Virus record (IMG/VR): IMGVR_UViG_3300025093_000015
Span: 1 to 64,000 of that record
Strand: one strand, 5' to 3'
DNA: 64,000 nt
Source: a virus
Part shown: piece after piece, positions 3,803 through 37,165 of the stretch
Layout: every line of letters begins with the position of its first letter
Numbering within the stretch: position 1 is the first letter of the stretch
The notes under the pieces: model-generated
The model's database searches: none
Seen by the model: the letters and a program-made list of their open reading frames with translations, nothing else
What the model was told of the DNA's origin: nothing
Translations under genes and position numbers: made by a program

Positions 3803-4087
3803 ATGGCAAAAGAGTTAAATGAAGATACATCATTTAAGGTTAGTGTAAAAACTTTAATAGCTATTGCTATTGCTCTGTCAACAGTAATAGGCATGTGGTT
3901 TGCATTACAGGCAGATATAGAAGAAGCAAAAGAACTTCCTGTACCACCACCGCCAGATGTTACACGTATGGAGTTTGATATGAAAGATAAAAATATTAGA
4001 CTAACAATACAAAATACTGCAGATGATGTTGAAGAAATTAAAGATGACATCAAACGTATAGAAGAAAAAATAGATAAACTAAGATAA
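3803..4087 (+). CDS. Single-pass membrane protein with coiled coil
   Basis: 94 residues. Short polar N-terminus, one membrane helix at about 16-35 (LIAIAIALSTVIGMWFAL), a Pro-rich hinge (PVPPPPD) and a C-terminal coiled coil (DDVEEIKDDIKRIEEKIDKL). Topology predicts a cytoplasmic N-terminus and an exposed coiled coil, as in i-spanin-like or other small phage membrane proteins. Function not proven. It starts two bases after the upstream stop. Confidence 0.65.
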   Translation: MAKELNEDTSFKVSVKTLIAIAIALSTVIGMWFALQADIEEAKELPVPPPPDVTRMEFDMKDKNIRLTIQNTADDVEEIKDDIKRIEEKIDKLR

Positions 4088-4929: not shown

Positions 4930-5286
4930 ATGAAAAATTCTGTTTGGAAGATATTTGGGATCTACCTTTTATTGCTAGTTTGTATTTTATTTTCACAGCA
5001 ATCATTTGGTCAAGTAACTGTTGTACAGTACAATGCAAATTGGAATGATGCAAACAAAGTAACTTGGCTAAAAAAATTATCTGATGTTGATAAAGTAAAA
5101 GATGTATGTATAGCTGAAGATCCTAAAGCCCAACAAAAACATGAAATAGTTGTAGTACCTACTATAATTATTTTTAAAGATGGTGAAGAGGTAAAAAGAT
5201 ACCAAGCAGATATATCATTTACAATGAAGGCTACTAGAGAAGAGATACAAGAATTTATTGACGAACTTATAATGAGTGATTTTTAA
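4930..5286 (+). CDS. Exported thioredoxin-fold protein lacking the active-site cysteines
   Basis: 118 residues. Residues 1-28 form a Sec signal peptide (charged start, hydrophobic core IYLLLLVCILF, end FSQQSFGQ). The rest reads as a thioredoxin fold: strand VTVVQYNANW, a helix, then VPTIIIFKDGEEVKRY with the conserved cis-Pro after Val. The usual W-C-G-P-C-K active site is replaced by W-N-D-A-N-K, so redox activity is not expected, and a binding or scaffolding role in the periplasm is more likely. It is followed two bases later by the T9SS cargo gene, suggesting a joint envelope role. Confidence 0.7.
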   Translation: MKNSVWKIFGIYLLLLVCILFSQQSFGQVTVVQYNANWNDANKVTWLKKLSDVDKVKDVCIAEDPKAQQKHEIVVVPTIIIFKDGEEVKRYQADISFTMKATREEIQEFIDELIMSDF

Positions 5287-5287
5287 T

Positions 5288-7750
5288 ATGAAAAAACTTT
5301 TATTTCCACTATTAATATTATTATCTAGCTTTGCATTATCACAAAATTCTTATATTGTCATAGAAGCACAATATGATTCATGGGGACCTGCAGAATCTCA
5401 ATTTTATATTACAGATGCCCAAGGTGATACTGTGTATCATCATCAACCTACAGTGCAAAGTGAATATTTATTAGATACTTTATTTATAAACGCACAACCA
5501 CTTACGGCTATTTTATTAGATCAATATGGAGACGGATGGCAAGATACTGGTCAACAAGGTTATTTTAGAACATGGAATAATTGTCAAGATACAATAGTAG
5601 AATTTATATCTTCACCTACAAATTACTTTGCCACAGAAATAATAAACTTTAATCTGGGTCCATGTCTACCAAACGGACCTCCACCTCCACCATGCTTACC
5701 TGCAGTAGTTATAATTAATTTAGATCAGTATCAATCAGAAACGTCCTGGGAGATTACTGATACTTTAGGTTTTGTAGTAGCATCAGGTAGTGGTTATGGT
5801 TCACAACCAGATTATGGAACTGTTGTTGTTCCTGTATGTTTACCACAAACTGTATTAAATTTTACAATATTTGATTCTTATGGAGATGGTTTAAATGGTT
5901 CACTTTGGCAAGGTCAAGATGGATCTTATTTTGTTAAACAATGTGGTGATACGTTAGTATATGGTACAGATCCGGCTTTTGGTACAGACACAACACATGT
6001 CTTTACTATAAGTGAATGCCCTCCTATATATGGGTGTACAGATGATGATTATGTAGAATGGAATCCGTTTGCAGATACTGATGATGGTAGCTGTCAAACA
6101 TTAAAAGTATTTGGGTGCATTGATCCAGATGCATTTAATTATGATTCTACAGCTAACACAATGGACCTAGTTCCACAATGTGAGTTTACACTAATACTGC
6201 ATGATCTAATGGGTAATGGTTGGGTTGGTTCAAATTTAGAATTAGAGTTGCCTGATACGTCTTTTAATTTTACTCACACAGGTGGTTTCAATGATGAATA
6301 CCAATTTACAATAGATGCTCCGGATCCTGCTACGTTTAGGTTTCAAATATCTCCACAGGCTGCACTAACTACTATAGAGTGTGGGTTTACTTTACTTAAT
6401 CCAGAGGGTGATACATTAATTAGTGTTCAACCTCCATTTATACAACCTTTGTTTCCATATTCTTTTATTACTAATTGTGGTAATACGTGTATAGAAAAGA
6501 TATTTGGGTGTACAGATAGCCTAGCTTTAAACTATTATGATGAGGCTAATACAGATGATAGCTCTTGTTACTATGTGGCAGGATGTATGAACCCACTATA
6601 TTTAGAATATGATACAGCTGCTGATTATGATGATGGATCATGTGTAACTTTAATTGTTGCAGGATGCATGGACTCAACAGCTCTTAACTATGATCCGCTA
6701 GCAAACGTAGAGATACCAGGATCATGTGTAGCAATAGTAGAAGGATGTATGAATCCTTTAGCATTTAACTATAATCCTAATGCTAATGTTGATGACTCAA
6801 CATGTATACCAGTTGTTGATGGTTGTACAAATCCTATTGCACTTAATTATGATTCAACTGCTAATACAGATGATGGTTCTTGTGTATTACCAGTGCCAGG
6901 GTGTACAGACCCTAATGCATTTAATTACAATCCCCTAGCAAATGTAGATGACTCAAGTTGTATTGATATAGTATATGGTTGTACAGATGCTTCTGCTTTT
7001 AACTATAATCCTTTAGCCAATGTAGATAATGGTTCTTGTGAACCTTTTGTGTTTGGTTGTATGGATTCTACTATGTTTAATTTTAATCCTTTAGCAAATA
7101 CAGATGACAATAATTGCATTCCTTTTATTTATGGTTGTACTGATCCAAGCATGCTCAACTACAATCCACAAGCTAATACAGAAGACTTTAGTTGTATTGC
7201 TTACATTTATGGTTGTACTGATAGTACTGCCCTTAATTATGATCCGTTGGCTAATACTGACAACGGCACGTGTATTGAAGTGGTTACAGGGTGTATGGAT
7301 CAAGGTGCGTGGAACTATGAACCTTTAGCAAATGTTAATGACTCAGCTTCTTGTTTATATAGTGCTGGTTGTATTGATGGTCCAGGTAATCCTTATTGGT
7401 TAAATGATGGATGTTATGCATGGGTAATTGATGTAGATGTTTATTGCTGTGAAAATGCATGGGATGCATCATGTCAAACAATGTATGATTATTGTCAACT
7501 TGGATGGCCTACAAATATAGATGATTTATCAGTAATAGGTGTTGTAATATACCCTAACCCAACAACTGGAATTGTAAGAATATCTACAAGATTAGAAATA
7601 CAATTAAAGGTTTTAGATATGAGTGGAAAAACTATAATTGATGAGCTTAATCCACAAGTAATAGATTTATCAGACTATGCAGATGGTCTATATAATATTA
7701 TAGTAAATGTTAATGATAAACAATACTTCAATAAAATTATAAAACAATGA
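5288..7750 (+). CDS. T9SS-exported cell-surface protein with 13 Cys-rich repeats
   Basis: 820 residues from ATG at 5288 (a GTG twelve bases upstream would put residues before the signal peptide). Order: signal peptide (MKKLLFPLLILLSSFALSQ), two beta-rich domains with GDGW/GDGL turns (DQYGDGWQDTG, DSYGDGLNGS), a related third domain (DLMGNGWVGS) among the first repeats, thirteen units of the type G-C-[TMI]-[DN]-x7-N-Y-[DN]-P-x-A-N-x-D-[DN]-x-[ST]-C, a second Cys-rich module (CCENAWDASC), and a type IX secretion sorting domain at the C-terminus (VVIYPNPTTG, then VLDMSGK, DLSDYADGLY and the final KIIKQ). Known T9SS cargo is exported and anchored on, or released from, the outer membrane of Bacteroidota. 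This implies that the infected cell displays it. Confidence 0.85.
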   Translation: MKKLLFPLLILLSSFALSQNSYIVIEAQYDSWGPAESQFYITDAQGDTVYHHQPTVQSEYLLDTLFINAQPLTAILLDQYGDGWQDTGQQGYFRTWNNCQDTIVEFISSPTNYFATEIINFNLGPCLPNGPPPPPCLPAVVIINLDQYQSETSWEITDTLGFVVASGSGYGSQPDYGTVVVPVCLPQTVLNFTIFDSYGDGLNGSLWQGQDGSYFVKQCGDTLVYGTDPAFGTDTTHVFTISECPPIYGCTDDDYVEWNPFADTDDGSCQTLKVFGCIDPDAFNYDSTANTMDLVPQCEFTLILHDLMGNGWVGSNLELELPDTSFNFTHTGGFNDEYQFTIDAPDPATFRFQISPQAALTTIECGFTLLNPEGDTLISVQPPFIQPLFPYSFITNCGNTCIEKIFGCTDSLALNYYDEANTDDSSCYYVAGCMNPLYLEYDTAADYDDGSCVTLIVAGCMDSTALNYDPLANVEIPGSCVAIVEGCMNPLAFNYNPNANVDDSTCIPVVDGCTNPIALNYDSTANTDDGSCVLPVPGCTDPNAFNYNPLANVDDSSCIDIVYGCTDASAFNYNPLANVDNGSCEPFVFGCMDSTMFNFNPLANTDDNNCIPFIYGCTDPSMLNYNPQANTEDFSCIAYIYGCTDSTALNYDPLANTDNGTCIEVVTGCMDQGAWNYEPLANVNDSASCLYSAGCIDGPGNPYWLNDGCYAWVIDVDVYCCENAWDASCQTMYDYCQLGWPTNIDDLSVIGVVIYPNPTTGIVRISTRLEIQLKVLDMSGKTIIDELNPQVIDLSDYADGLYNIIVNVNDKQYFNKIIKQ
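6032..7354 (+). repeat. Thirteen in-gene tandem Cys-rich protein repeats
   Basis: Thirteen units of about 22 residues, spaced 27-99 residues apart, each opening with Gly-Cys and closing with Cys, with a core Asn-Tyr-[Asp/Asn]-Pro and a DD[GS]SC ending. Units 5-13 are the most regular; units 1-4 are more diverged and separated by longer insertions. The conserved Asp/Asn positions suggest metal (calcium) binding and each unit a disulfide. Confidence 0.85.
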
Positions 7751-8841
7751 GGAAGACAATAGATATAACACCAGTTATATATGTTTTAGTAATGATTGTA
7801 ATGTTCTTAATAGGAACAACTTCTGCTTTTAGTCAGGAAAGTAATTTTAAAAGCAGCCTTAAAAAAACATTTAAGTTTGCTACTTTTTACGGTGCTATCA
7901 ATGGTAACAACTCTATTTCAGATGTTGATGTATTTTCAGTTACGAATGGATTAGAAAAAGAAACAATAGAGACTCCATTTGACTATTCAATGTCAGTTGG
8001 TATTAGAAAGATTGCTAGATTTGGATACGAGAATAGAGCTAATACATTTTATGATGGTAGTGAAAAATCATACAGTGATGCAGCAACGTTAGGTAAAGTA
8101 AGAGGTTTTGAGTTTCTTTTTGAATTAGATTACGCTAGACAACAAGGTACCGACTTTCTCAATCAACAGCACTTCTTAAGATATGTAGCTAACAGATGGA
8201 TAGCAAAGGTAGAATATGTCCAGGATGGTTTTGCGGATATTAAGTATTACGAGTCATCACAAAGGTATAGACAAAAGTTCAACAATAAGTTTTCATTGAA
8301 TATAGGTGCAGTACAAAGACTGTCTGAACCATATGGATACGATCCACTAGAAGAGTGGGTGCTATCTACAGGAGACATACACTACACAAACCTTGCTTTA
8401 GAAGAAGGGTATAATGTAGAATTTGATGGCTCAGGCGGAGTAACCTATCTTAATCCTAATGGGAACGTTGTAGCAGAAAACACCCAGGTATGGGAAGCTG
8501 TGGTGATCCCTGAAGTACTATCCAACTATGTAGAAAAGAAAAGAAATGAGTTACCAACACAGTGGAACCATTCTCTAGTAATAGGGTTGGACTATTACCA
8601 TTTTACAAAAGACTTTTGGGTACATACCTGGGGAAACATAATGCCTTATCACTATGATGCGGGAGGAGAGTATTCTTATCATACATTCCACGGAGGACAA
8701 TGGACAGACTACTCTGGTGGTTTAATTTTTGGATGGAGAGCTAGTAAGCATCTTGGTTTTTTCTTAGAAGGTAAGTACAATAAGTATTGGAATAGACAAT
8801 GGCATGACTTTAAATTGGGTGTCAATTACGTGATATTCTGA
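7747..8841 (+). CDS. Exported outer-membrane-type beta-barrel protein
   Basis: 364 residues. A signal peptide (hydrophobic core VIYVLVMIVMFLIG, end TSAFSQ) is followed by about 330 residues dominated by aromatic, alternating strands, with a terminal strand 'FKLGVNYVIF' ending in Phe as outer-membrane barrel proteins do. Segments such as MSVGIRKIARFGYENRA and FFLEGKYNKYWNRQWHDF look like barrel strands. The start overlaps the stop of the T9SS cargo gene by four bases (ATGA), so the two are translationally linked. Codons are more GC-rich than in flanking genes, hinting at a later acquisition. Specific function unknown. Confidence 0.65.
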   Translation: MRKTIDITPVIYVLVMIVMFLIGTTSAFSQESNFKSSLKKTFKFATFYGAINGNNSISDVDVFSVTNGLEKETIETPFDYSMSVGIRKIARFGYENRANTFYDGSEKSYSDAATLGKVRGFEFLFELDYARQQGTDFLNQQHFLRYVANRWIAKVEYVQDGFADIKYYESSQRYRQKFNNKFSLNIGAVQRLSEPYGYDPLEEWVLSTGDIHYTNLALEEGYNVEFDGSGGVTYLNPNGNVVAENTQVWEAVVIPEVLSNYVEKKRNELPTQWNHSLVIGLDYYHFTKDFWVHTWGNIMPYHYDAGGEYSYHTFHGGQWTDYSGGLIFGWRASKHLGFFLEGKYNKYWNRQWHDFKLGVNYVIF

Positions 8842-9390: not shown

Positions 9391-9623
9391 TGTCTAAAAA
9401 CTGGATTAAAGGAGCAATAAAAAAACCGGGATCTCTTACCGCTGCTGCTAAAGCAAAAGGTATGAGTATATCTCAGTATTGTCAAAATCCACCATCTACA
9501 TTAGCAAAGCAAAGATGTAACTTAGCAAAGACATTAAAAAGTTTTAAGAAGGCTGAAGGAGGACAAGTACAAGGATGTGGTTGTCCATATGGAATGGAAA
9601 TGGGCCCAAATAGAGTATTATAA
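9390..9623 (+). CDS. Small basic phage protein (WIKGAIKKPG family)
   Basis: 77 residues, starting MSKNWIKGAIKKPGSLTAAA. Proteins opening with WIKGAIKKPGALxxxA followed by a Lys-rich helix and an LAKTL segment recur in marine phage genomes. Here NLAKTLKSFKKA is followed by a Cys pair (GCGCPYG). Probably small virion-internal or DNA-associated. No experimental role known to me. The start overlaps the CDGSH gene stop. Confidence 0.6.
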   Translation: MSKNWIKGAIKKPGSLTAAAKAKGMSISQYCQNPPSTLAKQRCNLAKTLKSFKKAEGGQVQGCGCPYGMEMGPNRVL

Positions 9624-9624
9624 T

Positions 9625-10020
9625 ATGAGTATACTAGGAAAAATATTTAGCGGAGGTGCAGGAGAACTGGTTGAATCAGTTGGTGGGGTTCTAGATAACC
9701 TAACTACATCCAAAGAAGAAAAGCTAGAAGCTAAAAGAAAACTAAAAGAATTAATCCTGAAGCATGAAGCTGAGATGGATAAACAAATAACTGAACGTTG
9801 GAATGCTGATATGGCATCTGACTCTTGGTTATCTAAGAATGTAAGACCAATGGTTCTTATATTTTTAATTGTTTGCACTATGCTACTTATTTTTATTGAC
9901 GCAGGTGCAATAAGCTTTGTTGTAGAAGAGAAGTGGACTGATCTACTGCAACTAGTATTAATAACAGTAATAGGTGCTTATTTTGGTGGCCGTTCTGTGG
10001 AGAAAGTAAAGAAAAAATAA
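9625..10020 (+). CDS. Holin-like membrane protein (Holin_3TMs type)
   Basis: 131 residues from ATG at 9625; an upstream in-frame start at 9577 lies inside the preceding gene and is unlikely. An amphipathic N-terminal helical region (LTTSKEEKLEAKRKLKELIL) is followed by DSWLSKNVRPMVLIFLIVCT, a second membrane segment and the glycine-bearing LVLITVIGAYFGGRSVEKV. The pattern W-L-x-x-x-x-R-P at the membrane entry and the G-x-x-x-G-G-R-x-x-x-K end match the three-TM holin family of gene transfer agents and phages, which perforates the inner membrane at lysis. Confidence 0.7.
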   Translation: MSILGKIFSGGAGELVESVGGVLDNLTTSKEEKLEAKRKLKELILKHEAEMDKQITERWNADMASDSWLSKNVRPMVLIFLIVCTMLLIFIDAGAISFVVEEKWTDLLQLVLITVIGAYFGGRSVEKVKKK

Positions 10021-37066: not shown

Positions 37067-37091
37067 AATAATCTATTTAATTAGTTAACTG

Positions 37092-37165
37092 TACACCCAG
37101 TAGGACTTGAACCTACAACCTACAGCTTAGAAGGCTGTTGCTCTATCCAATTGAGCTATGGGTGC
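37092..37165 (-). tRNA. tRNA-Arg(UCU)
   Basis: Cloverleaf read leftward: acceptor GCACCCA/TGGGTGT (first pair G-U), D-stem GCTC/GAGC, anticodon stem ACAGC/GCTGT with loop CTTCTAA (anticodon TCT), T-stem GTAGG/CCTAC with loop TTCAAGT. 74 nt including discriminator A; no CCA is encoded. It reads AGA, the dominant Arg codon in this A/T-rich genome, and would support translation in a host with a different balance. Confidence 0.95.

Follow-up and report, generated by a model that had tools for sequence, protein, structure and literature searches.

Phage genes whose products end in sorting domains of the type IX secretion system (T9SS) are the closest described counterparts of the locus considered here, a surface-protein gene (hereafter the cargo gene) and the four-gene cassette around it near the start of a 64,000-nucleotide stretch of viral DNA (the window), which forms the first 64,000 bases of the 87,710-base virus record IMGVR_UViG_3300025093_000015. 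In the 'Cryophage', T9SS type A cargo is encoded by variable genes, among them an endoglucanase, a GH39 and a PA14 protein, and the idea that such cargo serves superinfection exclusion has been proposed in the same paper (Bellas et al. 2020, PMC7468147). In crass-like gut phages, repeat open reading frames (ORFs) lie near the head genes and one ORF with BACON repeats carries a T9SS sorting domain (PMC6949934, 2019). As far as the passages of these two papers considered here go, phage-encoded T9SS cargo is therefore not a new idea, and the statement of a first-pass annotation, made from the letters of the window, that such genes are not known as an established class is not supported in that form. 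The same annotation placed T9SS exclusively in Bacteroidota, which is slightly narrow, as the 2020 paper, in the part considered, gives the Fibrobacteres-Chlorobi-Bacteroidetes superphylum. The present locus differs from the 'Cryophage' genes in having one repeat family, a fixed cassette and a second type of tail, and from the crass-like gut phages in having Cys-rich units instead of BACON domains; the passages of the 2019 paper considered here describe no cassette. In the open-access literature, without subscription papers and preprints, we recognised nothing that describes the cassette or the short tail, nor the sharing of the cassette by crass-like and sheath-bearing phages. The best reading, considered fairly probable in one joint judgement that covers export, cassette and host-fitted end together, is that the cargo would be displayed on infected cells through the host T9SS, that the four genes of the cassette travel jointly between phage lineages, and that the cargo end is fitted to the host, being either the classical domain or the short tail of one host family.

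The ORF of the cargo (5276–7750) starts with GTG, and the ATG at 5288 gives a protein of 820 residues whose C-terminus is a T9SS type A sorting domain. TIGR04183 scores 34.4 bits on residues 754–820 (cut-off 23) and PF18962 scores 40.8 bits on the C-terminus (cut-off 27). The absence of any score to T9SS sorting models, named in the first-pass annotation as a refuting outcome, was thus not observed. A profile (A5) of 16 classical ends, comprising 14 viral rows and two from contigs of metagenome-assembled genomes (MAGs), some of them among the sequences that it labels, matches 8glk_D, the NucA sorting domain in a solved T9SS complex (E 3e-10), and 8glj_D (E 1.9e-7), as well as gingipain sorting domains. 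The model of residues 751–820 aligns with 8glk_D over 70 residues (VIA Z 7.7, root-mean-square deviation (rmsd) 2.1; Foldseek TM 0.78 on the target) and also resembles 8glj_D (Z 6.6) and the sorting domains of RgpB and PorZ. Since unrelated immunoglobulin-like folds reach similar values (3sd2, for example, Z 7.1), the fold alone is unspecific and the sequence profile bears the weight of the assignment. The domain thus shares with the known ones (TIGR04183 and PF18962, NucA and FspA in 8glk and 8glj, RgpB) a score above cut-off, the predicted fold and the place at the extreme C-terminus, and it differs in being carried by a phage.

The N-terminus of the cargo, MKKLLFPLLILLSSFALSQ, is by eye a Sec-type signal peptide, and among the 123 distinct cargo ORFs with an intact 5' end, a crude rule recognises a signal-peptide-like start in 121. 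The sorting domain, the signal peptide and the location on phage DNA make use of the host export route probable, and export of the cargo via the host T9SS is well supported by these sequence features. In these respects the first-pass annotation, which had proposed a Sec signal peptide, a T9SS sorting domain and a hijacked export route, stands. The cargo was also considered as a virion protein, a possibility that was rejected because it has both the signal peptide and the sorting domain.

Between its two ends, the cargo contains twelve Cys-rich units that match a strict pattern (residues 249–689) and one diverged unit at 276–298, so that the thirteen units counted in the first-pass annotation are correct. 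Two thousand shuffles of the protein yielded no unit of the strict pattern, and 41 of the 820 residues are Cys. The run of repeats is interrupted, with a predicted beta-sandwich (about residues 296–396) separating unit 2 from unit 3. The AlphaFold2 model (mean pLDDT 54.5) shows three fair beta-sandwich domains and the C-terminal domain, and the repeat region remains unresolved in it, with pLDDT below 50 over units 3–13 and no reliable structure. Domain 1, with block means of 70–88 across most residues, has a borderline match to the vCBM60 structure 2xfd_A (VIA Z 8.0, rmsd 2.6, 87 aligned), and the match of domain 3 to 2xhh is weak to borderline (VIA Z 7.1, rmsd 3.9, 96 aligned). The N-terminal domains are swappable, and a MAM domain is present in 8 of 32 aligned relatives. 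The window's own record contains no second match to the cargo profile.

Flavobacteriales repeat proteins share the unit GC.D....NY.P.A..DDGSC and frequently carry a T9SS domain or a short tail at the C-terminus; the host loci differ in that no likeness over the whole protein and no cassette was seen in them, except in L049 and L050, both phage-like contigs. In cyanophage S-CAM3, the Cys-rich unit occurs within a protein annotated as virion structural. Proteins of 1457–3089 residues encoded at other sites of related phage records (L236, L237, L238, L239 and L240) contain one to eight Cys-rich units each and have no signal peptide or sorting domain at the ends inspected, so that repeats alone are uninformative as to whether a protein is cargo or virion component.

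The relatives of the cargo end in two ways. PF18962 is found in 12 of 32 full-length relatives; in the remaining 20 the C-terminus is a short tail, for example LIMITDLLGRPTKENKNKLLLYIYNDGTVQRKLIKK. The first-pass annotation is silent on this tail, as it is on the cassette. Across 201 viral loci, the 186 cargos with a 3' end give 143 distinct ends, 112 of them classical, 30 short and one neither; clustering at 90% leaves 107 clusters (83 classical, 23 short, one neither). The single end of neither kind (L333) may reflect a frameshift, since its tblastn match continues beyond the stop. No sorting model of NCBIfam, TIGR04183 included, matches the short tail (0 of 7 tails, E up to 10). It is therefore not classed as a T9SS type A sorting domain, although it may act alike, and in this the 30 short-tailed distinct relatives differ from those carrying the known domains. 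Profile comparison of short and classical ends gives a weak result (probability 20.7, E 0.0011), in which the short tail is aligned to the final segment of the classical domain. In a tree of the thioredoxin-like and barrel proteins of the cassette (34 rows), the tail type needs five changes, at least three of which are forced by well-supported branches; exchange of the whole gene could be the cause of some of them.

Short tails of the same kind also terminate bacterial proteins encoded in Flavobacteriales MAGs. A profile of short tails (A4), built from 18 phage and 15 host rows, some of them among the sequences that it labels, has matches in 2 of 296 genomes sampled across the phylum, one of these being the genome used as centre. 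In the Flavobacteriales family of the centre genome, matches occur in 52 of 52 genomes (3–52 in each), a count partly helped by the host rows, which were drawn from Flavobacteriales MAGs of unspecified family; G016 contributed no row. Thirty-nine host proteins were taken from the highest-ranking hits and not at random (40 were picked, and one, a 40-residue frame, was dropped). The tail lies within three residues of the stop in all 39. A crude rule recognises a signal-peptide-like start in 34, one of them doubtful, and of the five others two are truncated at the 5' end. The T9SS translocon SprA is encoded in 44 of the 52 genomes of this candidate host family, and PF18962 has 44 matches in the centre genome besides the short tails. 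Its family-wide presence, its C-terminal position, the signal-peptide starts and the presence of SprA make the short tail look like a lineage-specific surface-sorting signal that has been taken up by phages, and it is probably a T9SS signal. Judging from the names of the MAGs, the viral contigs would be marine.

The cargo gene does not stand alone. At 47 other viral loci with a cargo, many of them fragments, relatives of the 94-residue protein (38 loci), the thioredoxin-like protein (39), the barrel (37) and the holin (28) are found nearby. Because this set had been selected by the cargo, the barrel was also used as a query; its relatives are encoded on at least 540 viral contigs, and the analysis covered the best 80 loci (L464 and L466 lie at separate sites of one contig, and L392 is again the MAG contig described below). 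Of these 80 loci, 72 have a cargo relative and 72 have an end of the classical or short kind, the two sets not being identical, as L408 has an end with too little cargo and L448 a cut cargo. The eight loci without cargo are in part short or cut. All four cassette genes are present at 65 of the 80, always on one strand (65/65), in three orders (39, 13 and 13 loci), each a rotation of cargo-barrel-transmembrane protein-thioredoxin-like protein, with a median span of 4918 bases. The features of the window are collected in Table 1.

Table 1. Positions in the window of the cassette genes, the segments of the cargo and the neighbouring holin gene.
Feature	Position	Strand	Basis
Cassette gene 1, 94 residues; one transmembrane stretch near the N-terminus, charged coiled-coil-like C-terminal half	3803..4087	+	topology by eye
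Cassette gene 2, 118 residues; exported thioredoxin-fold protein without CxxC	4930..5286	+	models, profile, motif counts
Cassette gene 3, T9SS cargo, 820 residues	5288..7750	+	ORF, sorting-domain models, repeat count
Cargo: signal peptide, about residues 1-19	5288..5344	+	by eye; Q19 invariant in 32 relatives
Cargo: beta-sandwich domain 1, residues 21-124, CBM60-like fold	5348..5659	+	AlphaFold2 and VIA
Cargo: beta-sandwich domain 2, residues 136-241	5693..6010	+	AlphaFold2; weak fold matches
Cargo: repeat units 1 and 2, residues 249-298	6032..6181	+	AlphaFold2 layout, pattern count
Cargo: beta-sandwich domain 3, residues 296-396, fold like a calcium-dependent carbohydrate-binding module (CBM)	6173..6475	+	AlphaFold2 and VIA
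Cargo: repeat units 3-13, residues 407-689	6506..7354	+	pattern count
Cargo: further Cys-rich domain, residues 694-736	7367..7495	+	many Cys/Trp columns invariant in 32 relatives
Cargo: T9SS type A C-terminal sorting domain, residues 754-820	7547..7747	+	PF18962, TIGR04183, profile, fold
Cassette gene 4, 364 residues; outer-membrane beta-barrel, 12 predicted strands, signal peptide, C-terminal Phe	7747..8841	+	AlphaFold2, VIA
Neighbouring holin, lysis gene outside the cassette	9577..10020	+	phrog_3427 holin, E 4.9e-32

The 94-residue protein has no match in Pfam and a weak match in PHROG to a family of unknown function, and a hidden Markov model search finds its relatives at 67 of the 80 best barrel-anchored loci. 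The thioredoxin-like protein stays under the curated cut-offs (TIGR01068, 23.4 of 96.8 bits; PF00085, 19.8 of 23.5), and a profile of 34 relatives matches solved thioredoxins (best E 6.8e-7). It shares with thioredoxin the fold and the cis-Pro motif, [IV]PT being kept in 85 of 92 distinct relatives, and it differs in being exported, with a hydrophobic N-terminus in 92 of 92, and in its active site. WCxxC is found in none of the 92 relatives, CxxC, the active-site motif of a thioredoxin oxidoreductase, occurs anywhere in two of them, and the motif [YF]NAxWN stands at the active-site place in 81.

The barrel matches no family in Pfam, PHROG or NCBIfam. Its AlphaFold2 model (pLDDT 70.2) resembles Tsx (VIA Z 14.3), EstA (13.5) and NalP (13.3), and barrels of the PorV/PorP type, which have 14 strands, are absent among the 50 structural matches listed for this 12-stranded prediction. 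In several barrel and cargo relatives (L018, L013 and others), lipobox-like starts (..SC..PKKCCGQ..) replace the plain signal peptide, with the same motif on both genes. Within the candidate host family, one genome out of 52 has a match to the barrel, and this match lies on a phage contig of a MAG; a host origin of the barrel was rejected on these grounds.

The window's record carries terminase, portal and major head genes annotated by PHROG (phrog_6681, phrog_6547 and phrog_11589). Its terminase is 24–26% identical to the best records listed, such as cr50_1 and Flavobacterium Fpv20; cr50_1 and similar records we take to be crass-like phages. The likeness to cr50_1 and to Flavobacterium phages is taken to point to a crass-like phage of a Bacteroidota host. 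A different kind of carrier is L049, a Flavobacteriales MAG contig of 43,296 bases; of its 42 ORFs, only five have a match on the window's record, four of them belonging to the cassette. Elsewhere L049 encodes a tail sheath (phrog_23, E 2e-66), a tail tube protein, a recombinase and a subunit of ribonucleotide reductase, and the cassette is adjoined by an amidase gene whose product has a peptidoglycan-binding domain. Two more contigs, of 158 kb and 57 kb, hold both the cassette and a relative of the L049 sheath; a QueC homolog (7-deazaguanine synthesis) is also encoded on a sheath-bearing contig (L312:10186-11034, minus strand). Judged by gene content, the cassette is common to crass-like and sheath-bearing phages.

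Comparison of 48 cassette records with the window's terminase gives 12 matches, five at 76–100% identity, six at 26–29% and one marginal (23%). In five of the six records with a distant terminase, all five crass-like with the terminase at 27–29%, the barrel is 53–66% identical to that of the window, and the sixth locus (L041) lacks a barrel. Conservation of the cassette thus far exceeds that of the terminase, a difference read as exchange between lineages. Its prevalence was sampled in the 15 longest terminase-matched records, all longer than 43 kb, out of the best 80 terminase loci of a longer list. In the 11 records of at least 75 kb, matches to the cargo beyond the repeats alone occur in eight, to the thioredoxin-like protein in nine, to the barrel in eight and to PF18962 in seven; the four records of 43–50 kb have no thioredoxin-like protein, barrel or PF18962, and two of these four match the repeats alone.

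If the reading of display through the host T9SS is right, Sec would carry the cargo into the periplasm, the host translocon would move it across the outer membrane, and it would then be fixed on the cell surface or released, as the biology of T9SS suggests. The cargo itself would consist of CBM-like beta-sandwich domains, a stalk of Cys-rich repeats and the sorting domain recognised by T9SS. Together with the putative inner-membrane coiled-coil protein, the periplasmic, presumably redox-dead thioredoxin-fold protein and the predicted outer-membrane barrel, the surface cargo would provide one product per envelope layer. As to the purpose, a late change of the infected cell's surface, which would keep further phages, whether rivals or progeny of the same phage, from adsorbing to cells and debris, is tentatively put forward as the likeliest, with somewhat less than an even chance. 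For the capture of metal ions, one of the uses suggested in the first-pass annotation beside superinfection exclusion and altered grazing or adhesion, the sequences gave evidence neither way. The widest formulation, a mobile trans-envelope module of Bacteroidota phages with four genes in rotated order, passed between crass-like and sheath-bearing phages, displayed through T9SS and provided with a host-matched tail that may be an undetected short T9SS signal, appears about evenly balanced between right and wrong.

Several observations weigh against these readings. The host family is deduced from tails that phages and hosts have in common and from a single phage contig that was binned with a MAG. 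Of the 48 cassette records, 36 have no terminase match, most of them being fragments, so that a phage type is assigned to a minority of the carriers. Among the 11 records of at least 75 kb, G001 and G008 lack cargo, thioredoxin-like protein and barrel alike, and G013 has the latter two and no cargo. The carbohydrate-binding likeness of the cargo domains depends on Z values of 7–8, and adjacency to lysis genes is compatible with other purposes too.

Two of the alternatives, lysis and adhesion, are serious rivals to the adsorption-blocking purpose. The cassette could be part of the lysis apparatus, a spanin-like device across the envelope in which the coiled-coil protein is the inner and the barrel the outer component, linked by the thioredoxin-like protein, with the cargo as a surface partner by which the outer layer is weakened or marked. 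A set of products with one member per envelope layer would suit such a device, the topology of the 94-residue protein is by eye like that of an i-spanin, and lysis genes are frequent neighbours. At 38 loci with 3 kb on both flanks, a holin homolog lies within 4 kb at 11 and an amidase endolysin, accompanied by the small membrane protein C_19192, at eight; 15 further loci have C_19192 alone, and four have none of the three. However, C_19192 itself has no match to a lysis family, so that annotated lysis genes support just 19 of the 38 loci, and a surface protein of 13 units with swappable N-terminal domains is not obviously needed for lysis. Spanins are not known to have T9SS-exported partners or beta-barrels, and on balance a role in lysis is considered unlikely. 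A similarly low probability is given to the proposal that the cargo is an adhesin, gluing infected cells or their debris to particles, cells or glycans, so that progeny would more often meet new hosts, and does not serve to exclude phages. The CBM-like and MAM domains at the N-terminus of the cargos fit this proposal, as do the same repeats in surface proteins of Flavobacteriales hosts, but the fold matches are borderline, the binding partner is putative, and adhesion alone leaves the other three genes of the cassette unexplained.

A further alternative concerns the route and not the purpose, namely that the short tail is the signal of another outer-membrane or surface pathway, and that the two kinds of cargo go to different places. 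The failure of every sorting model to match the seven tails and the weak comparison of the short with the classical profile speak for such a pathway. Against it, the short tail replaces the classical domain on the same protein in repeated switches, the weak alignment places it on the last part of that domain, and the host proteins that bear it combine a position next to the stop with signal-peptide-like starts in genomes that mostly encode SprA; a separate pathway therefore seems improbable compared with a T9SS signal. Misassembly of host DNA onto the phage contig, which the first-pass annotation had named as a way in which its reading could fail, has practically no chance and is regarded as ruled out. 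The repeats are indeed common in Flavobacteriales surface proteins, but 47 other viral contigs carry relatives of the cargo among conserved neighbours, the barrel is confined to a phage contig among the genomes of the candidate family, and the 65 complete cassettes are rotations of one order.

Phages usually exclude rivals or alter the host surface by single small proteins. A conserved four-gene set that uses the surface-export machine of the host, in phages unlike one another, would be a new route of cell remodelling, and it leads to predictions on how infected Bacteroidota would appear from outside. Furthermore, a short T9SS signal, if real, would so far be confined to one Flavobacteriales family and missed by current models, which would then overlook dozens of surface proteins in each genome of an abundant group of bacteria. 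The narrow spread of the short tail could also help to link phages to their hosts.

Several minor observations concern the carriers. Near the holin of G013, a signal-peptide protein of 248 residues (L247:4466-5212, equal to G013:10465-11211, minus strand) ends in LYNLNGQVIRRPKGVYIEHGKVKYKVN, another short sorting-like C-terminus, and distant relatives of the G013 barrel amount to three loci. The contig IMGVR_UViG_3300030098_004828 (245,646 bases) contains two cassettes (L464 and L466) that are separated by about 120 kb and have a cargo gene each, and given these and the crass-like appearance of the flanks it is perhaps a concatenated or double genome. In IMGVR_UViG_3300030331_002523, the terminase matches lie in two successive frames (G366:92308-94508), as if the gene were broken by an insertion, a frameshift or an error. 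In the window, a B12-dependent ribonucleotide reductase gene (PF21995, 153-2012, minus strand) adjoins the cassette block, and its relatives are also found near the cassette in other phages. The window contains a single tRNA-Arg gene (anticodon TCT), at 37091-37165 on the minus strand.

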